Of a stretch of DNA of 64,000 nt, positions 12,162 through 48,508 are shown piece after piece. The DNA comes from Spirochaetota bacterium (GTDB lineage Bacteria > Spirochaetota > UBA4802 > UBA5368). The stretch spans positions 1 to 64,000 of the forward strand of contig SCSX01000074.1 of the NCBI GenBank assembly GCA_004297825.1. Direction: 5' to 3'. The notes under the pieces were generated by a model. It was not told the origin of the DNA and did no database searches. It saw nothing but the letters and a program-made list of their open reading frames with translations. Numbering within the stretch: position 1 is the stretch's first letter; every line of letters starts with the position of its first letter. The position numbers and the translations under genes are program-made.

Positions 12162-12932
12162 TCAGCGGCCTATGATAGTACGCTCCGGATCGATCTCCTC
12201 CCGTAGTATCCTGAGCTCCATGACCGTGGGCGGCTTCGTCGTGAATACCTTACGCGCTTTCAGCAGCTCGAACCCGCAGTTGTTCTGAACGTCGTCGAAC
12301 GTGCAGCCCGGGTTGATGGATATCACCCTCATGCGCTTGCTTTCCTGTTCGAAATCCATGACGGCCATGTCGGTAATGACGCGATAGGGTCCGCAGTCCG
12401 CGGGCAATCCCGAGGCCGCACGCGAATCTCCTCCGTCCAGCCATCCCGGCGCAGTGATGAAATCCAGCGTGGGCACGAACCGGCTTTTTTCCTGGACGGA
12501 CATGATGATCGTGCGCCAGCACAGGGACGCGAAATCGTTGGAGCCGCCGCTGCCCGGCAGGCGGACGGCGGGTTTCCGGTAATCGCTCCCCAGCATGGTG
12601 GAGTTGATATTACCGTACAGATCGATCTGCGCGCCGCCCAGGATCGCGTAGTCGACCATTCCCCGGCTGCACGCCTGCATGACCTCGAACATCGTACCGG
12701 CCCTCACGGCCTTGTGGAACGTGCGGGAATCGCCCACCGAAACCGGCATCTCGGGTATGAGCGGATCGATGCCGCCCGATTCGAACATGATGACCAGATG
12801 GGGTGCGAGGGTTTTTTGCGCCAGCATGGCGGCTGCGCAGGGCGCCCCCGAGCCGATACCCGCCGTGCGCCCGTTGCCGAGCTCGCGCGCCGCGACGCAT
12901 ATCATGAGCTCCATGATATTATAATTCTTCAC
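12162..12932 (-). CDS. CoA-transferase beta subunit (glutaconate/IpdB-like)
   Basis: Beta subunit of a heteromeric class I CoA-transferase, which moves CoA between an acyl-CoA and a carboxylate. The catalytic Glu sits in VIMFESGGIDP near residue 50, as in GctB. The blocks GIGSGAPCAAAMLA, GGAQIDLYGNIN and GSGGSNDFASL also match the family. The start is GTG 12932, supported by AAGGAGGGG five bases upstream; it overlaps the alpha-subunit stop by 14 bases, indicating translational coupling. In IpdAB-type relatives the enzyme opens rings of steroid intermediates by hydrolysis rather than transferring CoA, so the exact reaction is open. Confidence 0.85.
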   Translation of the reverse strand: MKNYNIMELMICVAARELGNGRTAGIGSGAPCAAAMLAQKTLAPHLVIMFESGGIDPLIPEMPVSVGDSRTFHKAVRAGTMFEVMQACSRGMVDYAILGGAQIDLYGNINSTMLGSDYRKPAVRLPGSGGSNDFASLCWRTIIMSVQEKSRFVPTLDFITAPGWLDGGDSRAASGLPADCGPYRVITDMAVMDFEQESKRMRVISINPGCTFDDVQNNCGFELLKARKVFTTKPPTVMELRILREEIDPERTIIGR

Positions 12933-13929
12933 GGATCCCCTCCTTGTGGAGCATCAGTTCCCGTGCCCGGAGTTCCTTGATCCTGCCGATGCCGCCGGCA
13001 AGCTCGATATACGCCGCGTGGTCGGGACAATCGTGGATGATGCGTTTCAGGAACGACGCGAATGCGGCCGGATCGCCCTGCGCCGTAAGCCATTCCTTCA
13101 GGTGCGCTTCATCCGAATAGTACTCGCCGGGCATCCCTGTGGGATACGCCCCGTACGGAACCTCGCATACCGCATCCACGAGATAATAGGGGATCGATGT
13201 AAGGGCCGGATCGCTCCTGATCTCTTCGGTGGGGATAAGGCGTTCAGTGGTGATGATCAGCTTCCTGCTGGCCCCGGCCAGGTCGTCGTCCGATATCGTG
13301 ATTCCACGGATCCGGCAATTCCCGTAAATGTCTGCCTCGTGTACATGGATGACGGATACGTCGGGGTAGAGCGCGGGTTGCAGCACGAGCCTTTTCCCGG
13401 TAAACGGGCACGTTACGACTTTGGCCCCCGATTGGCGAAGGGTATCCGTGCCCAGCATGTTCCGCGTCGGCAGAAACGGTATTCCCATGGCCGCGGCCTT
13501 GAGGCGCGCCGCCAGGCTGAAGTTGGTCCATTCGCATATCCTGACGCGCCCGCTTTCCATGTACGCACGGGCGCACGGGCTCATGCCGCGCGTTTCCAGC
13601 CCGATTATAGAGGCGATGTCCACCCGGTCGAAGACCTCCCCCGTTGCGAGTATCTGGAAATCGTGGGTCGACGTGTGACCGGCGAACCCCATGTTTTTTC
13701 TTCCCTGGCGCACGATCTCCTGGCAGGCCGCGACCGGCGTGCGATTCGTGCCGAATCCGCCCATGGCCAGGTAGTCCCCGTCGTGAACGAATTTTTCCAC
13801 GGCCTCTTTCAGGCTCATAAGCTTGTTCGCCTTCATCCGGGATTTCGAACGGAAATATGCGCGCGCCTCGTCCGGATCGGGATTCATAAACAGCGGTCCC
13901 AGGGTTTGGGCTGTACTATCCGCAATCAT
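12919..13929 (-). CDS. CoA-transferase alpha subunit (glutaconate/IpdA-like)
   Basis: Alpha subunit partnering the downstream beta subunit. The family start is seen at MSLKEAVEKFVHDGDYLAMGGFG (split here only for description) around residues 38-60. The central block LPTRNMLGTD and the C-terminal half VIHVHEADIYGNCRIRG are also typical. The ATG at 13929 has AAGGAG nine bases upstream. The first about 35 residues (MIADSTAQTLGPLF...) are longer than in many homologues. It is the fourth structural gene of a minus-strand operon that also contains a single-chain CoA-transferase, suggesting two distinct carboxylate substrates. Confidence 0.85.
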   Translation of the reverse strand: MIADSTAQTLGPLFMNPDPDEARAYFRSKSRMKANKLMSLKEAVEKFVHDGDYLAMGGFGTNRTPVAACQEIVRQGRKNMGFAGHTSTHDFQILATGEVFDRVDIASIIGLETRGMSPCARAYMESGRVRICEWTNFSLAARLKAAAMGIPFLPTRNMLGTDTLRQSGAKVVTCPFTGKRLVLQPALYPDVSVIHVHEADIYGNCRIRGITISDDDLAGASRKLIITTERLIPTEEIRSDPALTSIPYYLVDAVCEVPYGAYPTGMPGEYYSDEAHLKEWLTAQGDPAAFASFLKRIIHDCPDHAAYIELAGGIGRIKELRARELMLHKEGIREEL

Positions 13930-13954
13930 GTTCAGGTCTCCTTGTCGAACGTCC

Positions 13955-15535
13955 TCATGATGCCCGGTCTTTTTTCCCGGGAGCGATTTCCTCGCGGATT
14001 CCCATGGGGCCTTCGAGGAATATCCTGGGATCCATGGGCCGCAGGTCGGAGGCCACGCGGGGCTCGAAATCCATCTGATCGAGAACGTCCCTTCTCAGGT
14101 CGATCCCGGGCGCGATCTCAATGAGGGTCACGCCTTCTTTCCGTAATTCGAATACGGCCCGCTCGGTGACATACAGGACCCGTTGGCCGATCTCGCGCGC
14201 ATAGTCCCCGCTGAACGTGATCTGTTCCACGTGGTCGATGAACTTCTTGTCCCGGCCTTCCTTGACGACGGTCATCTGTCCGTTTTTCACGGCCACCTCC
14301 GCGCCGACCGTTAACGTGCCAATGAAGACCACCGTCTTCGCGTTCTGGGTGATGTTGATGAATCCTCCGCACCCGGCCAGCCTTGTGCCGAATCGGCTCA
14401 CGTTCAGGTTTCCGTGCCGGTCGGCCTGCGCCATGCCCAGGAAGGCCATATCGAGCCCCCCGCCGTCGTAGAAGTCGAACATGTAGGGCTGGTCAATGAT
14501 CGCCTGTGGGTTGGACGACGCGCCGAAGCTGAGTCCCCGCGCCGGTACACCGCCTATCGGTCCGGATTCCACGGTAAGCGTGAAGAGATCGAGCATGTTT
14601 TCCTCGGCGGCCACGGCGGCGATCCCGTCGGCCATTCCGATCCCCAGGTTCACGATGGCGTTCGGCATGAGCTCCATGGCCGACCGGCGGCTGATGATTT
14701 TCCGCGTCGTGAACGCCATGGGTTCCATCTGGTGGACAGGAACGTACACCTCGCCGGAGTAGGCGGGATTGTACTGTTCGAGAAACGTCTGCCAGTGGTT
14801 TTCCGGTCTGGCGACGACGACGGCGTCGACGAATATTCCCGGGATCCTCACGTCCAAAGGCCGGAAGCGGCCGTTTTCGGAGATCCGCTCCACCTGGGCG
14901 ATCACGATGCCGCCGGAATTACGCACTGCCTGCGCCATCGAAAGCATCTCGAGCGAGGTGCTCTCTTTTTCCATTCTGATATTTCCCTGTAAATCCGACG
15001 TCGTACCGCGCACGAGGGCGACGTTTATGGGGAACGCCTTGTAGAAAAGGCGCTCCCTGCCGCCCAGCTCGATGAGCTCCACCAGTTCCTCGGTCGTGCG
15101 GGCGTTCACCTTCCCGCCGTCCAGGCGCGGATCGACGAACGTCTTGAGACCGGTATGCGTGATGAACCCCAGGCGCCCCCCCGCGATTTCCCGGAACAGG
15201 CACGATATGGCGCCCTGGGGAAAGTTGTACGCCTCGATCTTGTTTTCCAATGCCATACGGCCGAGCTTGGGGGCGAGGTTCCAGTATCCCTCGATGACCC
15301 GCTTTATCAGGCCCTCGTGTGCCAGGTGGTTGAGTCCCTTCTCTTTTCCGTCTCCCTGCCCGGCGGCCCCGACTATGGTGAGATTTCTCGGCCGCCCTTT
15401 TTCTAAAAACATTCTCTCCAGCGAGGAGGTCAGCTCTTCGGGATGGGCATTGCCGACGAATCCGCCTATGGCCACCGTATCGCCGTCCCTGATCAGTGCG
15501 AGTGCGTCTTCGACGCTCATGATCTTGCCGGACAT
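13955..15535 (-). CDS. Single-chain acyl-CoA:carboxylate CoA-transferase (Pct/YdiF-like)
   Basis: A 526-residue CoA-transferase with alpha and beta halves fused, as in propionate CoA-transferase. The alpha half begins [21 protein letters not shown] and the beta half begins near [22 protein letters not shown]. The catalytic Glu is in TVESGPIGG (about residue 323). The start at ATG 15535 is preceded by GGAGA eight bases upstream; the ATG at 15550 has no ribosome-binding site. The chosen start leaves five bases between the upstream stop and this gene. It likely activates or deactivates short-chain acids at the cost of acetyl-CoA; the true acid is unknown. Confidence 0.88.
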
Positions 15536-15539
15536 CGCG

Positions 15540-16487
15540 CTATTCTCCATAGATGAGTTTTATAAGCTCGAAAAGCTTGTCGTCGCGCCACTGCACGAAA
15601 TCCTTGAAGCTGCGGCCCTTCATCTCGTCCTTGATCCCGTCGATGAGTTTTTCCTTCATGGGCTCGGTGATGTAGTTCCAGGTGGTCAACTCCTCCCAGA
15701 TGGCCTTGAAGGTCGTATTGCCGATACCGTCGATGAAGTGACCCACGCCCCCGTCCTCGCCGCCCCCGAGGTGGTAGATCATGTGCGAGCCCATGAGGGC
15801 ATACCGGATCCCGGGACCCGCGTACAGTGCCTTGTCCACGTCCTCGACGCTGGCCACGCCGTTTTCCACGAGATCGATCGCCTCCCGCCAGAGGGCGACG
15901 GCCAGGCGGTTGCCGATAAACCCGGGAACCTCCTTCTTGACCAGGACCGGGATTTTCCCCAGGTGCTCCATGAACGCGATCGATGTATCGACAGTCGCCT
16001 TCGAGGTATCCTTGCCGGGCACGATCTCGATAAGGGGAATGAGATGGGGCGGGTTCCACGGATGGGTGATGACGCACCGGTCCTTGTGCGCGACGGCCTT
16101 CTGTATCTCGGTCATGGAGAGGCCCGAGGAGCTGCTACCGATAATCGTTGCCGGCGGCGCACAGCGGTCCATCTCCTCGAAGATGGGTTTCTTTATGGCA
16201 TAGGTTTCACCGGTGCACTCCTCGATGAAGTCCGCGTCATGGACCGCCTCCGCGATTTCGGGAACGAACCTGACGCGCTTCATGGCCCGGTCGCGATCCT
16301 CCACGGTCATTACGCCCTTTCCCACGAAAAAATCGAGATTGGAACATATCTGCCGATATCCCTTGTCCCTGGTCTCGGGCCGTCTCGAATACGCTGTCAC
16401 CTCGTACCCCTTCTGGGCGAAGAGGGAGCCCCACGCCGCCCCGATCACGCCGGTACCGATGACCGCAACCTTCCTGATCCCGTCCAT
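15540..16487 (-). CDS. 3-hydroxyacyl-CoA dehydrogenase-family NAD-dependent dehydrogenase (lambda-crystallin/carnitine dehydrogenase-like)
   Basis: An NAD-binding Rossmann domain ([12 protein letters not shown] at residues 9-20) is followed by a short all-alpha C-terminal domain. The catalytic His lies in [18 protein letters not shown] near 140, and SSSSGLS replaces the usual substrate-loop sequence. This combination is typical of carnitine 3-dehydrogenase and L-gulonate (lambda-crystallin-like) dehydrogenases rather than of the classical 3-hydroxybutyryl-CoA enzyme at 48568. The ATG has AGGAG eight bases upstream. I infer oxidation of a 3-hydroxy acid or its CoA ester feeding the adjacent CoA-transferases. 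Substrate specificity is not determinable. Confidence 0.8.
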
Positions 16488-19986: not shown

Positions 19987-22014
19987 ATGTACGACAACCT
20001 TTTCAGCCCCATCAAGATTAACAGCCTCGAAATCAAGAATAGAATCGTATTTCCCGCCCTCGGGCTGCTGTTTTCACTGGACGGAAAGCTGAATGAGCGA
20101 CACCTGCATTTCTACACGGAAAGGGCGCGCGGGGGAACGGGTATCGTTACCGTGGGTCCAGTGGGCGTGGGAGAGATGGCGGTGGGGATCGCGTCTCCCG
20201 GCCTGGACAGCGACGATGCGATTCCCGCGTTCACGGAACTGGCGACCTCCGTCAGGAAGGCCGGCGCGCGGGCATGGCTCCAGCTCTATCACGGCGGACG
20301 CTACGTGAGACCCATCCAGATCGGGGGAGAGAAGGCGGTGGCGCCGTCGGCGGTGTATTCGTCGTACACGAAGGCGACCCCGCGTGAATTGACCATCGAC
20401 GAGATACACCGTGTCCAGGAGGCCTTCGTACGCACCGCGGAGAGGGCCCGGGAGGCCGGGTTCGACGGCGTGGAGATAATCGGCTCGGCGGGCTACCTGG
20501 TGACGCAGTTTCTCTCGCCCCTCACGAACTTGAGGAAGGACGAGTACGGCGGGAGTTTCGAGAACCGCACGCGCTTCGTGCGCGAAATGATCGCATCGAT
20601 GCGCGCGCGGCTGGGAACGGGCTACCCCATAACGGTGCGCATGGCGGGCAACGACTTTGTCCCCGGCAGCAACACGGATCGCGAGACGCCGGCGTTCGCG
20701 CGCATGTACGAGGAGGCCGGGATAGACGCCCTTAACGTCACCGGGGGCTGGCATGAAGCCCGGGTGCCGCAGATGGCAATGGAGCTTCCGCGCGGCGGGT
20801 TCGCCTACCTCGCGCGCACCATCAAGGACGCGGTTTCCATCCCCGTGATGGCGTCCAACCGCATCACCGACCCGGACACGGCCGAAAGAATCCTCCGGGA
20901 CGACATGGCGCACATGGTCAACCTGGGCCGCGTGCTCCTCGCGGACCCGTACTGGCCGGAGAAGGCGCAGTCGGGTCGCGTGAGGGAGATCATCCCGTGC
21001 ATCTCCTGCCTGCAGGGCTGCATGGACGAGCTCTTCGAGGTGCGTCACGTGCGATGCCTCGTCAACGCGCGCACGAGCTTCGAGGGGGAGAGGCGCATCG
21101 TGAAGACGAAGACTCCCCGTCGCGTGATGGTGGTCGGGGCGGGACCGGGCGGGCTCGAGGCGGCCATGAGGGCCGCCGAGGCCGGTCACCGGGTGGAGCT
21201 CTTCGACAGGGCCGGGCGCACCGGGGGACAGCTCTGGATCGCGGGGATGCCTCCGCACAAGCGCGAGATATGGGAGCTCGTGAAGTACTATGATACGATG
21301 CTCGGGAAACACGGCGTGGAAGTGAACCTTGGCGCCGAGGTCGGTATCGACCTTATAAAGGAAAGAAAACCGGATTACGTGATCATCGCGGAGGGTGCCG
21401 AGCCGCTCATGCCCCCCATCGAAGGGATACAGGCCCCGCCGGTACTCACCGCGTGGGACGTGTTGAAGAACGATCCTAAGATCGGGCGCAGGGTCGCCGT
21501 GATAGGCGGGGGAGCCGTGGGTATGGAGACCGCGCTTTTCCTGGCGGTGAAGGGAACGATTACCGACGAGGGGCTGGGATTCCTCTTCCGTTACGAGGCC
21601 GCGGACGCCGCGCGGCTCAAGGAGCTGGTCTTCAGGGGAACCAAGGAGGTCACGATCTTCGAAATGCTCCCCAGGGCGGGAAAGGGCGTCGGTAAGTCGT
21701 CCATCTGGATACTCATGGAGAATCTGAGAAAATACGGCGTGAAACTCGTCACCGGGGCGAAGGTCATCTCGGTGTCCGACGGCACGGTGGAGTTCGAGCG
21801 GGAGGGCGTCCTCCAGAGCCTCGAGTTCGACGCCGTCGTCAATGCGGCGGGCTCGCGGCCGGTGAAAAAGCTTGCGGACGCGGTCGCGAAGGCGGGAATC
21901 CCGCACGCCGTGGTGGGCGACGGGAAAAAGATAGGCCAGATCATGGACGCGATCCACGACGGCTACCTCGCCGTGACCGAAATGGAGAGCAGGGCGGAGG
22001 CGCACAGCCGTTAG
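19987..22014 (+). CDS. fadH: 2,4-dienoyl-CoA reductase / NADH:flavin oxidoreductase
   Basis: A three-part flavoenzyme of the FadH/trimethylamine dehydrogenase type. Residues 1-340 form an old-yellow-enzyme TIM barrel that binds FMN (NRIVFPALG, LQLYHGGRY, FLSPLTNLRKDEYGGS). CISCLQGCMDELF and the downstream Cys near 336-358 are [4Fe-4S] ligands. The C-terminal 290 residues bind FAD and NAD(P)H (MVVGAGPGGLEAA near 381; AVIGGGAVGMETALFLA near 503). It reduces conjugated dienoyl-CoA or related enoates so that beta-oxidation can continue. It is first in a plus-strand run with acyl-CoA dehydrogenases and ETF. The annotation to dienoyl-CoA rests on context; other enoates are possible. Confidence 0.87.
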   Translation: MYDNLFSPIKINSLEIKNRIVFPALGLLFSLDGKLNERHLHFYTERARGGTGIVTVGPVGVGEMAVGIASPGLDSDDAIPAFTELATSVRKAGARAWLQLYHGGRYVRPIQIGGEKAVAPSAVYSSYTKATPRELTIDEIHRVQEAFVRTAERAREAGFDGVEIIGSAGYLVTQFLSPLTNLRKDEYGGSFENRTRFVREMIASMRARLGTGYPITVRMAGNDFVPGSNTDRETPAFARMYEEAGIDALNVTGGWHEARVPQMAMELPRGGFAYLARTIKDAVSIPVMASNRITDPDTAERILRDDMAHMVNLGRVLLADPYWPEKAQSGRVREIIPCISCLQGCMDELFEVRHVRCLVNARTSFEGERRIVKTKTPRRVMVVGAGPGGLEAAMRAAEAGHRVELFDRAGRTGGQLWIAGMPPHKREIWELVKYYDTMLGKHGVEVNLGAEVGIDLIKERKPDYVIIAEGAEPLMPPIEGIQAPPVLTAWDVLKNDPKIGRRVAVIGGGAVGMETALFLAVKGTITDEGLGFLFRYEAADAARLKELVFRGTKEVTIFEMLPRAGKGVGKSSIWILMENLRKYGVKLVTGAKVISVSDGTVEFEREGVLQSLEFDAVVNAAGSRPVKKLADAVAKAGIPHAVVGDGKKIGQIMDAIHDGYLAVTEMESRAEAHSR

Positions 22015-27874: not shown

Positions 27875-29020
27875 ATGGGTAAAAGGGCGGCGATCTGCGC
27901 CGTGGCGCAGATCAAGAATCAGCCGGAGTACCCGCAGATGCGTTTTCAGAACATGCTGCTGGAATGCTTCGAGTCAATCATGGAGCAGACGAAGGTGACC
28001 TTCGACATGGACAAGGGCATCCGCAACATCATCACCTGCTCCGACGACGTGTTCGACGCGCGCACGATATCGGACAACGGCGTGACGGACGTGGTGGGCG
28101 CCCATTTCCGCGGCGAGGAAAAGATGGCGCAGGAAAGCATCAACGGCCTGGGCTACGCGATGGCGTGCATCCTGTCCGGGCACGACGACGTAATCCTCTT
28201 CATGGGACACTGCAAGGAGTCCCAGTCCGAAAGCCGCCGCATGTGCACGAATCTCGCCTATGATCCGTTCTACTGCAGGCCGCTGGGAATGGACTTCCAG
28301 AACGCGGACGCGCTGCAGGCGGGGGAATACATGGACAAGGCCGGGATCACCGAGGCGCAGCTCGCGAAGATCGTGGTGCGCGCGCGGAAGAACGCGAAGA
28401 AGAATCCCTACGCCCGCGCAAACGAGTCCGTGGACGAGAAGGCGGTGATGTCATCGCCCATGATCTGCGATCCCCTGCGCGCCCTGCATTATTACCCGGT
28501 CACCGACTGGGCATACGGGATGCTCATCGCGAGTGAGGAACGCGCGAAGGAATTTACCAAGAATCCCGTGTGGATGACGGGCTTCGGGTCCTGCATGGAC
28601 GAGTATTTCATGGGCGACCGCGATCTTGCGTCGAACTTCCCGCTTAAAAATGCCGCCGCGCGCGCATATGCGAAGGCCGGCGTGAAAGATCCGAAAAAGG
28701 ACATCCAGCTTTTTGAGCTCTCGGACCATGCGGCCTACCAGCTTCCGCTGTGGGCGGAGGGTGTGGGAATCGCCGGCGATGGAAAGGGCGGCGCGTGGAT
28801 TGACGAAGGGGGACCGGACAAATTCAACGTCAACCTTTCGGGAGGGCACCTGAACGGGAACCCGCTGCTCCTGGGAGGGGCCGCGAGGGCGATCGAGTGT
28901 TTCCTGCAACTGCGCGGCGAAGCGGGTGAGCGCCAGGTGAAGGGCGTGAAGCGCGCGCTCGCACAGGCTGCATACGGCGGCGCCGGCCAGCACCAGGCGG
29001 TGCTCATCATGGAGAGCTAG
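27875..29020 (+). CDS. Thiolase-fold protein lacking the thiolase Cys and His (SCP-x/Ltp-like), paralogue 1
   Basis: A 381-residue member of the archaeal-type thiolase/lipid-transfer family. The C-terminal family block NLSGGHLNGNPLLLGGAARA is present, but the catalytic GHP is GNP. The nucleophile region reads MAQESINGLGYAM with no Cys at the expected place. It is therefore unlikely to be an ordinary ketothiolase. Relatives such as actinobacterial Ltp2 are aldolases that work with a DUF35 partner; two DUF35-containing proteins are encoded downstream. It begins after AGGAGG, 12 bases before the second paralogue. Confidence 0.8.
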   Translation: MGKRAAICAVAQIKNQPEYPQMRFQNMLLECFESIMEQTKVTFDMDKGIRNIITCSDDVFDARTISDNGVTDVVGAHFRGEEKMAQESINGLGYAMACILSGHDDVILFMGHCKESQSESRRMCTNLAYDPFYCRPLGMDFQNADALQAGEYMDKAGITEAQLAKIVVRARKNAKKNPYARANESVDEKAVMSSPMICDPLRALHYYPVTDWAYGMLIASEERAKEFTKNPVWMTGFGSCMDEYFMGDRDLASNFPLKNAAARAYAKAGVKDPKKDIQLFELSDHAAYQLPLWAEGVGIAGDGKGGAWIDEGGPDKFNVNLSGGHLNGNPLLLGGAARAIECFLQLRGEAGERQVKGVKRALAQAAYGGAGQHQAVLIMES

Positions 29021-29032
29021 GGAGGACGGAAC

Positions 29033-30241
29033 ATGGCACACGGAAAGAAGAACAGAAACGTCGGGATAATAGGCATAGGGCAGACCAGGCATTCCAGCCA
29101 CCGCGAGGATGTCAACCAGCCCGAGATGATACACGAAGCGATAGCCGCGGCGCTCAAGGACGCCGGTCTCACGATGAAGGACGTCGATTGCATCGTGCAC
29201 GGCAACATGGAGCTCTTCGAGATGATACACCAGCCCGATCTCTGGCACACGCTGGGGACCGGCGCCGGGGGCAAGGATACGTTTCGCTTAACGACCGGAG
29301 GCACGGTGGGCATCACCCTCGCGTGCGCGTCGGACAACCTGGTCGCAAGCGGCATGTACGACATCGTTATGGCGATCGGCTTCGAGAAGCTGCAGGAGGG
29401 CCACACCACCGGCGGCATCACGAATATGGCGGACCCTTTGTGGTTTCGGAACCTTCAGACGGGCGCCCTCACGGGCTCGAAGGCGTACGACCTCATCTAT
29501 GAGTTCGGCGAGGAGCGCGCGAAGAAGGTGTCCATGACCTACCGCATCATCATGGACAAGCACGCGGGCCTCAACCCGAACGCGCACCGCTCGTTCGGCC
29601 TCGATTTCGCGCAGGCGGATGACCTCATCAAGAACTCGCCCAAGCTGGTAGGTGACCTCAAGCTCATCGAGATGTGCTCGCAGTCGGACGGCGCTTGCGC
29701 GGTGATCTTCGCATGCGAAAAGAGGGCGAAGGAGCTTTCGAAGAAGCCTGTATGGGTGCGCGACCATATTACCGTACACCGCGAAGAGGTTTTTAACATC
29801 TTCGGCTACGACGATAAATATCCGGCGGCCCAGACACAGCGCTTTGCCGCCGAGAACCTGTACACGCGCAACGGGATCACGAAGCCGCTCGAGTATTTCG
29901 ACGTGTTCGAGATGTACGACCCGGCATCGTGGTGGGGCGTCGACTGGTTCCGCGACTTCATGCTTCTCAAGGGCGACGAGGCCGTGAAGCTCGTCGAGGA
30001 CCACGAGATCATGATCGGCGGGAAAATGCCGGTCAATCCCTCGGGAGGAGTGATCGCATCGAATCCGATCGGCGCGACGGCGCTTTTAAGGATGGCCGAG
30101 GCGGCCCTCCAGGTACGCGGCGACGCGGGGGCGCACCAGATACCGAAGCCCGTGAAGCACGCGCTCGCGTCCGGGTTCGGGGGCACGATGTGGACCGTGC
30201 TCATGATGCTCGAGAAGGAACTCAACTGGCAGGAGGCGTAA
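29033..30241 (+). CDS. Thiolase-fold protein lacking the thiolase Cys and His (SCP-x/Ltp-like), paralogue 2
   Basis: A 402-residue paralogue of the preceding gene. Family landmarks are VGIIGIGQT at the N-terminus, CSQSDGACAVIFACE near 215 and VNPSGGVIASNPIGATALLRMAE near 335. The nucleophile segment is FRLTTGGTVGITLA with Thr or Gly where a thiolase has Cys, and GHP is replaced by SNP. Several Tyr and Trp residues (EMYDPASWWGVDW) lie near the would-be active site. The stop is one base before the SCP2-DUF35 gene. I infer an aldolase-like or CoA-binding subunit of a multi-protein complex. Confidence 0.8.
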   Translation: MAHGKKNRNVGIIGIGQTRHSSHREDVNQPEMIHEAIAAALKDAGLTMKDVDCIVHGNMELFEMIHQPDLWHTLGTGAGGKDTFRLTTGGTVGITLACASDNLVASGMYDIVMAIGFEKLQEGHTTGGITNMADPLWFRNLQTGALTGSKAYDLIYEFGEERAKKVSMTYRIIMDKHAGLNPNAHRSFGLDFAQADDLIKNSPKLVGDLKLIEMCSQSDGACAVIFACEKRAKELSKKPVWVRDHITVHREEVFNIFGYDDKYPAAQTQRFAAENLYTRNGITKPLEYFDVFEMYDPASWWGVDWFRDFMLLKGDEAVKLVEDHEIMIGGKMPVNPSGGVIASNPIGATALLRMAEAALQVRGDAGAHQIPKPVKHALASGFGGTMWTVLMMLEKELNWQEA

Positions 30242-30242
30242 G

Positions 30243-31430
30243 ATGGCGGAATACTGGGGAGTAACGGTAGATAATATTTTCGATACGATGCAGGAGCGTT
30301 TCCGGCCCGAAGGCGCGAAGGGCGTGGACGCCGTGTTCGGCTACGACATAGGCGGCGCGGGAAAGTGGAAGCTCACGGTGAAGGACGGGGCGATGAGGCT
30401 CGAGAAGGCGAATGATCTCTCGGGATGCGTCTCGTCCATGGTCTCGGACGCGGAGAGCTTCGTGGGCGTGAACATAGGCAAGGTGGACGCGGCGAGCGCA
30501 TTCACCGGCGGCAAGATCAAGGTGGAGGGGGACCTGGGCGCGTTCGGTAAAACGGGCAAGCTGTTTCGAAAGTACACTCCCCCCAAGAAGGAGATGTCGG
30601 TGAAGGATTACCTCGCGGACATGTTCGGCACCGTGGTGGCGCGCTTCAAGCCGGATGCGGCGGCGGGAGTAGACTACGTCTATGGCTTCGACCTTGGCGG
30701 CACGGACGGCGGAAAGTGGACGGTGTTCATCAAGGACCGGAAATGCACGCTGGTGACCGGCCTCCAGGGGAAGACCTCGGTCACGCTCGAGTTCGGCGAG
30801 GCGAAGGATTACGTCGACATGATACTGGGAAAGATCGACGCCAACAGCCTGCTTGCGGCCGGGCGCGGCGCGGCGATCGGCGATATCAACATCGCGCTCA
30901 AGTGGGGCCAGTATTTCGAGAAATACGCGGACCCGATGGCGACCGGCGAGCCCGAGCAGGAGCTCCTGATGCTCAAGAAAACAATATCGGTCAACCAGAC
31001 GTTCGTAACCGGTCCTGTCATGGGAAAGTTCCTGAACGCGCTCAAGGAGAAGAAGATCATCACCAATCGCTGCCCCAAGTGCGGTCGCATGCATTTTCCG
31101 GCGCGCGAGGTGTGCGCGGAGTGCCGCGTGCGCGCGGAGGAATGGGTCGAGGTGGGCCCCAAGGGCCAGGTGCGCTACATGGAGTACGTGTACTATTCGA
31201 GCCCCGACCCGCTCACCGGCGAATCGAGGGAAACGCCGTACGGTATGATCATGGTGCGCCTGGACGGCTGCAGGGGGAACGATCTCTTCATGCATCTGAT
31301 CCGGAGCGATCAGATCGACCGCATCCAGGGCGGGCGCAACGAAAAATCCGGCACCAGGGTCAGGCCCGTGTGGAACGAGCACCGGGTCGGCAGCATTTTC
31401 GACATCAAGTATTTCGAGATAGATGAGTGA
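30243..31430 (+). CDS. SCP2-SCP2-DUF35 fusion protein
   Basis: Three domains in 395 residues. Residues about 6-115 and 119-228 are two sterol-carrier-protein-2 domains, each with the VDxVxGxDxGG pattern and a G(K/R)-rich end. Residues about 265-395 form a DUF35 domain with a zinc ribbon (Cys 277, 280, 291, 294) and an OB-fold. SCP2 domains bind lipids or acyl-CoA, and DUF35 domains dock on thiolase-fold partners to shuttle acyl-CoA. It lies between two thiolase-fold genes and another DUF35 protein, and is probably the substrate-presenting subunit of their complex. The fusion of both carrier types is uncommon in my experience. Confidence 0.82.
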   Translation: MAEYWGVTVDNIFDTMQERFRPEGAKGVDAVFGYDIGGAGKWKLTVKDGAMRLEKANDLSGCVSSMVSDAESFVGVNIGKVDAASAFTGGKIKVEGDLGAFGKTGKLFRKYTPPKKEMSVKDYLADMFGTVVARFKPDAAAGVDYVYGFDLGGTDGGKWTVFIKDRKCTLVTGLQGKTSVTLEFGEAKDYVDMILGKIDANSLLAAGRGAAIGDINIALKWGQYFEKYADPMATGEPEQELLMLKKTISVNQTFVTGPVMGKFLNALKEKKIITNRCPKCGRMHFPAREVCAECRVRAEEWVEVGPKGQVRYMEYVYYSSPDPLTGESRETPYGMIMVRLDGCRGNDLFMHLIRSDQIDRIQGGRNEKSGTRVRPVWNEHRVGSIFDIKYFEIDE

Positions 31431-31440
31431 GGAGGGACAG

Positions 31441-32865
31441 ATGAGCACGAAAAACACCGACAAGGACAGTTTCGCCGTTCAAGGGAAACTCGCGCTCCCC
31501 TACACCTACTTCGCCGGGAGGGTGGGAAGCAAGTTTCTCACCACCATCCGGGACCAGAAGAAGATTATGGGAACGAAGTGCCCCACGTGCGGAAAGGTGT
31601 ATCTGCCCCCGCGGCAGGTCTGCCAGAAGGACTTTACGGACATCCGCAACAACTGGGTGGACGTAGGAAGCTCCGGTACGGTCGTGAACTTCACGGTCGT
31701 GCGCTACGAGGACCGGCATCTCGCACGCAAGCCCCCGTATGTGATCGCGATGATAAAGCTCGATGGGGCCGATACACCCATGGCGCACATACTGGACGGG
31801 CTTAAGCCCGAGGACGTGAAGAAGGGCATGCGCGTGGAAGCCGTCTTCGCCGAAAAGACGACGACGACGATCCTGGACATCGACCACTTCAAGCCCGAGG
31901 CGGAAAGGGCGAAAACCGGCTGGCGGCCCAAAGCCGCGCGCAAGCCTTACGTACCCGAACCCGAATCCGGGATCGAGGATAAGAGAAGGGGAGGAAAACC
32001 CGACATGTCGAAACCGGTGATAATCTGCGCGGCGCTCGCGGGCGCGGCAACCATGAAGAATCAGACCCCGGCGGTGCCCTACACCCCGTCGGAATTCGCG
32101 GAAGACGCGTACAAGTGCTGGAAGGCCGGCGCGGCCATGGTCCACGTACATGCGCGCGAGGACAACGGCATGCCCACGCACGATCACGAGCGCATCCGTA
32201 CGACGCACGACGCCATCAAACAGCGCTGTCCCGAGCTCATCGTGAACCTGAGCTCGGCTGTGGGCATGGGCAAGACCGCCGAACAGCGCATCTCCCAGAT
32301 CGTCGCGGTGAAGCCCGAGATGGCATCGCTCAATACCAACACGATGAACTTCAGCCTCCTAGACCGCAAGAGCGGCAAGATCTTCATCGACTTCGTGTTC
32401 GAGAACACCTTCACGATGCTGCAGGACTTCGGGAAGGCTATGGAGGAGAACGGCGTGAAGCCCGAGATCGAGGTCTACGACATGGGCGGGCTGGATAACA
32501 CGATGCTGATCGCGAAGCAGGGCTTTTTCACCAATCCCATGAATTTCAACTTCGTGTGGGGCGTCGCGGGCGGGCAGGCCTTCAGGGTCGAGACCTTCGT
32601 CGCGCTCATGAACGCGCTTCCGGCAAAGGCGAACTTCACGACATGCGGCGTGGGTCTGGACCAGTTTCCGGCGATCATGCAGTCGGGGATCCTGGGCGGA
32701 CACATGCGCGTGGGACTGGAGGACAACATCCGTATGCCCGACGGCGAGCTCGCGAAAGGAAGCTGGGAGCAAGTCGAGGTCGCGGTGCACGCGGCCGAGT
32801 GCCTGGGACGCGGCGTCGCGACGCCGGACGAGGCGCGTGCGATCATGGGTATTCATAAACGGTAG
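31441..32865 (+). CDS. DUF35 - beta-keto acid cleavage enzyme (BKACE) fusion
   Basis: A single frame of 474 residues. Residues 20-165 are a DUF35 domain whose zinc ribbon keeps only three Cys (47, 50, 61), with Asp 64 at the fourth place. After a basic, Pro-rich linker, residues 189-474 are a full BKACE (DUF849) domain beginning MSKPVIICAALAGAATMKN. Its zinc ligands are intact (His 235 and His 237 in HVHAR; Glu 427 in VGLEDN). BKACE enzymes condense a beta-keto acid with acetyl-CoA to give acetoacetate and a shorter acyl-CoA. The start at ATG 31441 has GGAGG seven bases upstream and is preferred to ATG 31423. An internal GGGAGG and ATG at 32005 could also yield free BKACE. Confidence 0.85.
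   Translation: MSTKNTDKDSFAVQGKLALPYTYFAGRVGSKFLTTIRDQKKIMGTKCPTCGKVYLPPRQVCQKDFTDIRNNWVDVGSSGTVVNFTVVRYEDRHLARKPPYVIAMIKLDGADTPMAHILDGLKPEDVKKGMRVEAVFAEKTTTTILDIDHFKPEAERAKTGWRPKAARKPYVPEPESGIEDKRRGGKPDMSKPVIICAALAGAATMKNQTPAVPYTPSEFAEDAYKCWKAGAAMVHVHAREDNGMPTHDHERIRTTHDAIKQRCPELIVNLSSAVGMGKTAEQRISQIVAVKPEMASLNTNTMNFSLLDRKSGKIFIDFVFENTFTMLQDFGKAMEENGVKPEIEVYDMGGLDNTMLIAKQGFFTNPMNFNFVWGVAGGQAFRVETFVALMNALPAKANFTTCGVGLDQFPAIMQSGILGGHMRVGLEDNIRMPDGELAKGSWEQVEVAVHAAECLGRGVATPDEARAIMGIHKR
31989..32007 (+). promoter_or_regulatory. Internal ribosome-binding site and ATG at the BKACE domain border
   Basis: GGGGAGG is followed after nine bases by the in-frame ATG at 32005, which starts exactly where free-standing BKACE proteins start. 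It may direct synthesis of a separate 286-residue BKACE, or be a relic of two formerly separate genes. Confidence 0.5.
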
Positions 32866-46169: not shown

Positions 46170-47045
46170 ATGAAGAAACGCGCGGGGAAATGGGCGCTCG
46201 TCGTCGAGGGCGGCGGGATGCGCGGGGTGTTCGCCGCGGGCGTCCTGAACGCGTTCGGGAAGGCGGGCTTCGATCCCTTCGACCTGTATATCGGCGTGTC
46301 GGCCGGGGCGTGCAACCTTGCCTCGCACCTCGCGGGGCAGAACGACAGGAACTTCGACATCATCGAGCGCTATTCCTCAACAAAGCGCTTCATAAATCTC
46401 TTGAGGTTCGTGCGCGGCGGGCATCTAATGGACCTGGACTGGCTCTGGGACGTGACCATTCTGGAGTACCGGCTCGATCTTAAAAGGCTTTTCGGAACGC
46501 TGCACGCGCGGGAAAAGGAGTTCCTCGTCGCGGTCACATCGATGGATCGCGGTGAGGCCCTGTACCTGCGGCCGGACGAAACCACGCTGGAGCACGCGCT
46601 CAAGGTTTCGAGCGCCCTCCCGCTCCTGTACCGGGGAAACCTATTCGCGGACACGGAGCGCGCGGCCGACGGCGGTGTTGCCGATTCGATACCGGTACGG
46701 GAGGCGTACCGTCGCGGGGCGGGGAGGATCACCGTGATACGGACCCGCGCATCGGATTACCGCATGGCCGCCGGTCGCATGGAAAAATTGGGCTCGATGG
46801 CGTTCAGGAAGCACCCCCGCTTCGCGAAGGCGCTGGAAGAGCGCGCGGAGAATTACAACGCATCGGTCCGGTTCATAAACGATCCGCCGGTGGGCATCAT
46901 TATCGACGAGATCGCGCCTTTGCCGGGAGAGGGACCGGGCCGAGCGACGCGGGACATGCGCGTCCTTCGCCTCGCGTATCTGCGGGGAGTCGAGAGGGGA
47001 AGCGATTTTGTAAAAAATTACCACGCGGGGGAAAAAACGCGATGA
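46170..47045 (+). CDS. Patatin-like phospholipase
   Basis: A 291-residue cytosolic patatin. The oxyanion loop GGGMRGVFAAGVL lies near residue 13, the nucleophile Ser is in GVSAGACNLAS near 47, and the catalytic Asp is in AADGGVADSIPV near 170 (family DGG motif). It belongs to the RssA/YjjU subset with an extra C-terminal domain. It is inferred to release fatty acids from membrane lipids or acyl esters. Its ATG follows the dehydrogenase stop by four bases and its stop overlaps the next gene by four bases, so it is integral to the operon. Confidence 0.87.
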   Translation: MKKRAGKWALVVEGGGMRGVFAAGVLNAFGKAGFDPFDLYIGVSAGACNLASHLAGQNDRNFDIIERYSSTKRFINLLRFVRGGHLMDLDWLWDVTILEYRLDLKRLFGTLHAREKEFLVAVTSMDRGEALYLRPDETTLEHALKVSSALPLLYRGNLFADTERAADGGVADSIPVREAYRRGAGRITVIRTRASDYRMAAGRMEKLGSMAFRKHPRFAKALEERAENYNASVRFINDPPVGIIIDEIAPLPGEGPGRATRDMRVLRLAYLRGVERGSDFVKNYHAGEKTR

Positions 47046-48508
47046 AGACACCGCAGGAGTATATCGAGAGCCTGAGAAAACTGGACCTGGTCGTGTACAT
47101 GTTCGGGAAGAGGGTTGAGAACGTGGTGGACGATCCCATTATACGGCCGTCGCTCAACGCCGTGGCGCTCACCTACGCGCTCGCGCGCAACCCGAAGTAC
47201 GAGGACATCATGACCGCGACCTCGCACCTCACCGGGAAGAAGATTAACCGTTTCACGCACATACACCGGAGCGTGGATGACCTGGTCAGGAAGAGCAAGA
47301 TGGGAAGGCTCATGGGCGCGCAGACCGGCTGCTGCTTCCAGCGTTGCGTGGGCATGGACGCGATGAACGCGCTCTCCATGACCACCTTCGATATCGACGC
47401 GAAATACGGCACGAACTACAACACGCGCTTCCTGGATTTCCTGCGCTACGTCCAGGACGAGGACCTCGTCTGCGACGGCGCGATGACCGACCCCAAGGGC
47501 GACCGCTCCCTGCCGCCGCACAAGCAGGCGGACCCGGACCTCTTTCTCCGCGTGGTCGAGGAGCGGAAGGACGGGATCGTCGTCAAGGGCGCGAAGGCGC
47601 ACCAGACCGGGGCTGTGAACTCGCACGAGGTGATCGTGATGCCCACGATTGCGATGCGCGAGGAGGACCGCGACTACGCGATCGCCTTCGCCGTGCCCAG
47701 CGACACGAAGGGCATCACCTACATCATGGGGCGCCAGTCCTGCGACACGCGCAAGCTCGAAGCCGGGAAGATCGACCGCGGGAACGCCGGGTTCGGCGGG
47801 CACGAGGCGCTCATCGTGTTCGACGACGTGTTCGTGCCCTGGGAGCGCGTGTTCATGTACAGGGAGCACGATTTCTCCGGCCAGCTCGTCGAGCAGTTCG
47901 CGTCGTACCATCGCCAGAGCTACGCCTGCAAGGTGGGCGTGGGCGACGTGCTCATAGGCGCGACCCAGACAGCGGCCGAGTACAACGGCGCGCACAAGGC
48001 GTCGCACGTGAAAGACAAGATCATCGAGATGAACCAATTGAATGAGACGCTCTACTGCGGCTGCATCGCGTGCGCTTCGGAGGGGCACTGCGAGCCGTCG
48101 GGCACGTACTACGTGAACACGCTCCTCGCGAACGTCCACAAGCAGAACATAACGCGCTTCCCCTACGAGATCGCGCGCCTCGCGCAGGATATCGCCGGCG
48201 GCCTCATGGTCACCTGTCCCTCGGAGGACGACCTCGAATCGCCCGAGGTGGGCCGCTGGGTGAAAAAATATTTCCAGGCGGCGCCGGGCGTTCCCACCGA
48301 GCACCGCATCCGGATCCTCAGGCTTCTGGAAAACATCACGATGGGGAGCGCCGCCGTCGGGTATCTCACGGAGTCTATGCACGGCGCGGGCTCGCCGCAG
48401 GCGCAGCGCATCATGATCGCGCGGCTTGTCAACATGAAGGAAAAGCAGAAACTCTCGAAGCGTCTCGCGGGCATCGTCGAGGACGGGGACATGGACGGAA
48501 AGGAATAG
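47042..48508 (+). CDS. abfD: 4-hydroxybutyryl-CoA dehydratase / vinylacetyl-CoA isomerase
   Basis: A 488-residue FAD and [4Fe-4S] protein that dehydrates 4-hydroxybutyryl-CoA to crotonyl-CoA. Family blocks are CVGMDAMNAL, GAMTDPKGDRSLPP, GAKAHQTGAVNSHE, ITRFPYEIARLAQDIAGGLM and TESMHGAGSPQAQRIMIAR. Cluster ligands Cys 98 and Cys 102 are kept, and HRQSYACK (290-297) holds the expected His, Tyr, Cys and Lys, though with one residue fewer between Tyr and Cys than I recall in the Clostridium aminobutyricum enzyme. It shares four bases with the patatin stop. Context with hydratase and 3-hydroxybutyryl-CoA dehydrogenase fits entry at crotonyl-CoA. Confidence 0.9.
   Translation: MKTPQEYIESLRKLDLVVYMFGKRVENVVDDPIIRPSLNAVALTYALARNPKYEDIMTATSHLTGKKINRFTHIHRSVDDLVRKSKMGRLMGAQTGCCFQRCVGMDAMNALSMTTFDIDAKYGTNYNTRFLDFLRYVQDEDLVCDGAMTDPKGDRSLPPHKQADPDLFLRVVEERKDGIVVKGAKAHQTGAVNSHEVIVMPTIAMREEDRDYAIAFAVPSDTKGITYIMGRQSCDTRKLEAGKIDRGNAGFGGHEALIVFDDVFVPWERVFMYREHDFSGQLVEQFASYHRQSYACKVGVGDVLIGATQTAAEYNGAHKASHVKDKIIEMNQLNETLYCGCIACASEGHCEPSGTYYVNTLLANVHKQNITRFPYEIARLAQDIAGGLMVTCPSEDDLESPEVGRWVKKYFQAAPGVPTEHRIRILRLLENITMGSAAVGYLTESMHGAGSPQAQRIMIARLVNMKEKQKLSKRLAGIVEDGDMDGKE

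Follow-up and report, generated by a model that had tools for sequence, protein, structure and literature searches.

The locus analysed here lies in a 64,000-nucleotide stretch (the window) of contig SCSX01000074.1 from an uncultured Spirochaetota bacterium (assembly GCA_004297825.1), where a DUF35 domain and a BKACE domain share one gene and a Shine-Dalgarno (SD) element followed by an ATG stands at the border between them. This arrangement raises the question of whether the gene is an artefact or recent accident, a fusion with one product, or a fusion whose internal start yields a second, shorter product. As the original prediction had described, both domains were found in one open frame at 31441-32865, DUF35 (zinc ribbon plus OB fold) coming first and a complete BKACE after it (Table 1). 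All three domains were matched in Pfam, including (i) zf-ChsH2 (PF12172) at 28.7 bits versus a cut-off of 23.2; (ii) OB_ChsH2_C (PF01796) at 53.1 bits versus 27.1; and (iii) BKACE (PF05853) at 307.5 bits versus 24.8 (1e-91, profile positions 1-274 of 274). The start at 31441 was preferred over an in-frame ATG at 31423: in 38 of the 40 fused copies, the ATG with the best ribosome-binding site lay 185-193 codons 5' of the internal Met. In a 28-row alignment of the fused proteins the mean column identity was 83% and the DUF35 part was strongly conserved. The structure model built from this alignment (mean pLDDT 69.8) displayed an OB domain rich in beta strands, a linker without structure around residues 155-188 and then a barrel in which strands and helices alternate; its top structure matches were Kce (2y7d) and other BKACE proteins, and next came DUF35 chains from the Ltp2-ChsH2 complex and from archaeal thiolase complexes.

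Table 1. Positions of the fusion gene, its parts and the neighbouring genes discussed in the text (coordinates of the window).
Feature	Position	Strand	Remarks
DUF35-BKACE fusion gene	31441..32865	+	474 aa; stop 32863-32865; frame open 31441-32862
DUF35 zinc ribbon	31579..31632	+	C47-x2-C50 ... C61-x2-D64; Asp replaces fourth Cys
DUF35 OB-fold domain (OB_ChsH2_C)	31654..31848	+	Pfam; model matches ChsH2 DUF35 6ok1 and archaeal DUF35 6esq
Linker, about 34 residues	31903..32004	+	sequence variable, length nearly constant, model confidence low
Internal Shine-Dalgarno element GGGGAGG	31988..31994	+	sequence; conservation across fused copies
Internal ATG (Met189), predicted second start; 286-aa product	32005..32007	+	ATG in 38/40 fused copies; SD outlier
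BKACE domain	32005..32865	+	metal and active-site residues conserved; Pfam, alignment and structure matches
Thl1, thiolase-fold protein	27875..29020	+	no catalytic Cys, no GHP His
Thl2, thiolase-fold protein	29033..30241	+	no catalytic Cys, no GHP His; YDP motif
SCP2-DUF35 fusion, directly upstream	30243..31430	+	all four ribbon Cys kept
Glutaconate-CoA-transferase-like pair	12162..13929	-	homologue of the pair 3' of the fusion in other genomes

A recent fusion by loss of a stop codon had been considered in the original prediction, with a stop hidden by a sequencing error as the main risk. Both were ruled out by the search for other DUF35-BKACE fusions that it had proposed: in the related genomes and GTDB species genomes searched, 40 distinct copies of the fusion were found, each with its frame unbroken, distributed over two phyla and reaching down to about 65-70% identity. 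The hosts were uncultured Spirochaetota as well as Syntrophales/Smithellaceae, including genomes named Smithella, and in the order of uncultured Spirochaetota to which the window belongs, 20 of 46 genomes had the fusion. It had also been allowed that the two genes might always be separate in relatives; this was the case only in other lineages, with DUF35 and BKACE genes separate but neighbouring in other deltaproteobacterial genomes and Anaerolineae, and with BKACE of the same subfamily, within the close clade of the BKACE tree, lacking a neighbouring DUF35 altogether in some other genomes. A tree of the BKACE domain placed 39 of the 40 fused copies in one clade of modest support (88/72) and left one copy (L053) unplaced; the fused copies may all have one origin. 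The Syntrophales copies were nested among the Spirochaetota copies, which suggests transfer between these groups. On comparative grounds the fusion is not recent; it is probably old and selected.

The junction sequence is aagagaaGGGGAGGaaaacccgacATG, with the ATG at 32005-32007 positioned 10 nt after GGAGG (31990-31994), a spacing that is slightly long in this GG form. Unfused BKACE relatives were found to start at the position of the internal ATG or a few residues before it, and to carry an SD at the equivalent place, in agreement with the claim that GGGGAGG and ATG stand where stand-alone BKACE proteins begin. The element was present under two junction peptides, GGKPDM and ERRKAM, with GGAGG read in different codon phases. 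When compared with synonymous recodings drawn from each gene's own codons, anti-SD pairing at the junction exceeded the recoding mean in 40 of 40 copies, 14 of which were individually below 0.05, with the reservation that the copies are related and non-independent, such that summed probabilities are not P-values. The first junction Gly was encoded by GGA or GGG in 26 of 26 copies and had the lowest codon entropy among 32 Gly columns; it was the only Gly column to be purine-ended throughout (column median 0.33). The second junction Gly, whose third base is outside the SD core, used all four codons, and the Arg-Arg form of the junction was AGG-AGG in 10 of 13 copies. The median SD energy of the junction Met was -11.9 kcal/mol (none of the 38 weaker than -9), a clear outlier among 51 conserved internal Met columns drawn from the fusion and the three genes upstream, for which the runner-up was -7.1 kcal/mol. 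In strength the junction SD equaled or exceeded that of the start of the fusion itself (median -9.3 kcal/mol) and that of separate BKACE genes, which was similar (median -9.7 kcal/mol). Furthermore, predicted mRNA openness had a median of 0.60 at the junction versus 0.44 in the remaining gene. Two fused copies, L007 and L008, had ATA instead of the internal ATG and a weaker SD (-8.4 and -10.0); the genomes of both were found to hold another fused copy with ATG. The SD and the start codon are conserved beyond the constraint of the peptide, and the comparison reveals an RNA-level constraint on the internal start. We conclude that this start is under selection and infer that it is used in translation. 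A gene with two products, one of the two options of the original prediction, is therefore well supported at the sequence level. The full-length product is under selection too: in 38 of 40 copies the two starts lie 185-193 codons apart, and neither a stop nor a frameshift interrupts the frame, despite a variable linker sequence.

Two explanations that dispense with one of the products were weighed against this evidence. If only a single product were made, the junction SD would be a remnant of the ancestral BKACE start or a pause site giving DUF35 time to fold before BKACE emerges; the equivalent start and SD of the unfused relatives and the two fused copies missing the internal ATG speak for this reading. 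At 65-75% protein identity, however, a useless element should decay, whereas 38 of 40 copies retain both the SD and the ATG, and the two change codon phase together; moreover, a pause site needs no ATG, and the SD is weak too where the ATG is lost. We therefore regard the single-product explanation as unlikely. Conversely, BKACE might act chiefly as the internal-start product, with the in-frame link to DUF35 a neutral accident. The conserved spacing of the starts within an open frame despite the variable linker, as well as the high conservation of DUF35, make such an accident improbable, even if the strong internal SD and the occurrence of same-subfamily BKACE without an adjacent DUF35 would be in line with it.

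The SCP2-DUF35 gene, which encodes SCP2 in two stretches plus DUF35, ends 10 nt before the fusion-gene start, and the order Thl1, Thl2, SCP2-DUF35, DUF35-BKACE was constant wherever the contig extended far enough. Within the Spirochaetota order, a Thl2 orthologue was detected in 19 of 20 fusion-bearing genomes and in 0 of 26 fusion-free genomes; the exception was a genome (G005) with a contig end 1 kb upstream of the fusion. Thiolase-fold genes are thus both linked to and co-occurring with DUF35-BKACE, as expected if its DUF35 is a docking subunit. Thl2 has an invariant Tyr-Asp-Pro at the position of the catalytic YDHF of Ltp2 and YDCY of Sal, both described as aldolases in PMC12329534. As a separate observation, Thl1 and Thl2 are strictly conserved members of the thiolase superfamily, although the nucleophilic Cys and the GHP His are absent from both. 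The window genome also carries a second fused copy (L111; G000:C8:6000-24000) in a paralogous cluster, together with a second DUF35-Thl-Thl-DUF35 set, a CoA-transferase pair, a ligase and dehydrogenases.

An acyl-CoA carrier role for DUF35, as assumed in the original prediction, was proposed in 2010 from the SSO2064 structure (PMC2954200); the same paper lists DUF35 fusions to SCP2, thiolase, Rossmann and hot-dog domains, with BKACE absent from the list. By contrast, PMC12329534 describes hydratase-fused DUF35 domains that dock the hydratase to a thiolase-fold aldolase (Sal-Shy and Ltp2-ChsH2), which fits the neighbourhood of the fusion better. Based on these known DUF35-thiolase complexes and on the thiolase-fold gene neighbourhood, DUF35 most likely docks BKACE onto a Thl1/Thl2 thiolase-fold complex. 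That DUF35 instead supplies acetyl-CoA to BKACE in cis is doubtful in spite of the acyl-CoA binding put forward for SSO2064, as BKACE relatives bind acetyl-CoA without DUF35 (according to the title of 9hnf), DUF35 docks to thiolase-fold partners in its solved complexes (PMC12329534), and thiolase-fold genes are always beside the fusion. The reported loss of the fourth ribbon Cys was confirmed for the window copy, which has Asp (CPTCGKVYLPPRQVCQKD), and most fused copies have three Cys plus Asp. However, the loss is not tied to fusion: Asp is likewise found in two unfused Myxococcota copies (L062 and L063), and all four Cys are kept in L009, L010, L011, L012, L019, and L053, which are six of the fused ones. 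The CtShy ribbon is Cys3His, which shows that the ligands of this site can change (PMC12329534), so that zinc may still be bound by the Asp-type ribbon.

The BKACE domain is expected to be catalytically active because its active-site residues are invariant: H235, H237, R423, E427, and D428 were the same in all 28 fused rows and align to the HLH and R..GFEDN motifs of Kce. The BKACE reaction converts a beta-keto acid and acetyl-CoA to an acyl-CoA and acetoacetate (PMC6365646). With 270.8 bits versus a cut-off of 382 for 3-keto-5-aminohexanoate cleavage enzyme (NF052387), the domain classifies as a BKACE but not as a member of this equivalog. The window BKACE has Ala at the position of a Kce Glu (E14 by count on the alignment), which has a role in amine binding in Kce; since Ala stands in its place, the Kce substrate is unlikely. 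Smithella propionate dismutation, which proceeds through 3-ketohexanoate (PMC10180298), was attractive as a pathway since the fusion occurs in Smithellaceae, but it was rejected as the core role, as only 6 of 20 genomes of the genus have the fusion.

We regard it as probable that the fusion is old, is under selection and gives two products, with DUF35 docking BKACE on Thl1/Thl2 and the internal start yielding free BKACE. The 474-aa protein would tether BKACE through DUF35 to Thl1/Thl2, encoded just upstream, on which the SCP2-DUF35 protein would also be docked; initiation at the internal SD and ATG would give BKACE alone, such that free and DUF35-bearing subunits would be produced together. 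Free BKACE could, by way of speculation, serve to form mixed oligomers with fewer docking arms. The enzyme would convert a beta-keto acid and acetyl-CoA to a shorter acyl-CoA and acetoacetate without ATP, and the acetoacetate could be reactivated by the glutaconate-CoA-transferase-like pair located 3' of the fusion in sister clusters. In many of these clusters the region 3' of the fusion holds a ligase, the CoA-transferase pair, a second DUF35-Thl-Thl-DUF35 set, and acyl-CoA dehydrogenases; in the window, genes for acyl-CoA dehydrogenase and ETF lie on either side of the fusion, with the transferase pair apart at 12162-13929. An IpdAB-type ring hydrolase was considered for this pair and rejected, with the B subunit matching glutaconate CoA-transferase at 7e-49 versus 3e-12 for IpdB-type chains. 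In the alignment the B subunit keeps the ESG Glu, which IpdB is without. Based on the better match and the retained Glu, a true CoA-transferase is likelier.

When compared with known systems, the parts of this locus are of known kinds, while the DUF35-BKACE combination and the conserved internal start were absent from the literature searched. No paper joining or naming both DUF35 and BKACE was found in these searches, consistent with the earlier remark that the link is undescribed; nor was anything found on Smithella with Kce, or on Smithella with thiolase/mutase. Among the closest known systems is ChsH2/Shy (MaoC-DUF35) with Ltp2/Sal, for which the text consulted of PMC12329534 likewise describes a pathway enzyme that bears a fused DUF35 as the dock for a thiolase-fold lyase, with a zinc ribbon that is variable there too (CtShy, Cys3His); the fused enzyme is a hydratase instead of BKACE, and that text reports no internal start. 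In another known DUF35-joined thiolase-fold complex, DUF35 is a separate protein and BKACE is absent. Kce/BKACE enzymes (2y7d, 3lot, and 9hnf) have the fold and the metal and active-site residues in common with the window protein but are stand-alone. The bifunctional 3-aminobutyryl-CoA ammonia lyase/Kce (NF052389) similarly has BKACE at the C terminus of a two-domain fusion; its N-terminal partner, however, is an enzyme, and the window protein scores 181 versus a cut-off of 725. Nested products by internal initiation are described for Cas11b, whose start lies inside a larger cas gene (PMC11899642); this protein is unrelated and its internal start was experimentally tested, whereas the DUF35-BKACE start is predicted.

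These results suggest that one gene would give tethered and free versions of an enzyme in uncultured anaerobic bacteria. The internal start, if used, would be a conserved case of one gene setting the ratio of the two; gene callers and databases would list the long protein only, and the short product would be missed. In addition, BKACE joins the enzymes linked to DUF35, and the arrangement predicts a testable multi-enzyme assembly in uncultured anaerobes.

Several further genes were also observed. A gene for a small PHP-domain protein was located just 5' of Thl1 in most second-type clusters (L042:6319-6888, L111:535-1092). In the window, the region 12162-16487 includes, besides the ESG-Glu transferase pair, another CoA-transferase as well as a gene that resembles those for 3-hydroxyacyl-CoA dehydrogenase. 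An old yellow enzyme-type NADH:flavin oxidoreductase with a pyridine-nucleotide reductase domain (19987-22014) heads the gene run toward the fusion. At 47042-48508 an HpaB-family protein is encoded, possibly 4-hydroxybutyryl-CoA-dehydratase-like, with enoyl-CoA hydratase and 3-hydroxyacyl-CoA dehydrogenase genes nearby.
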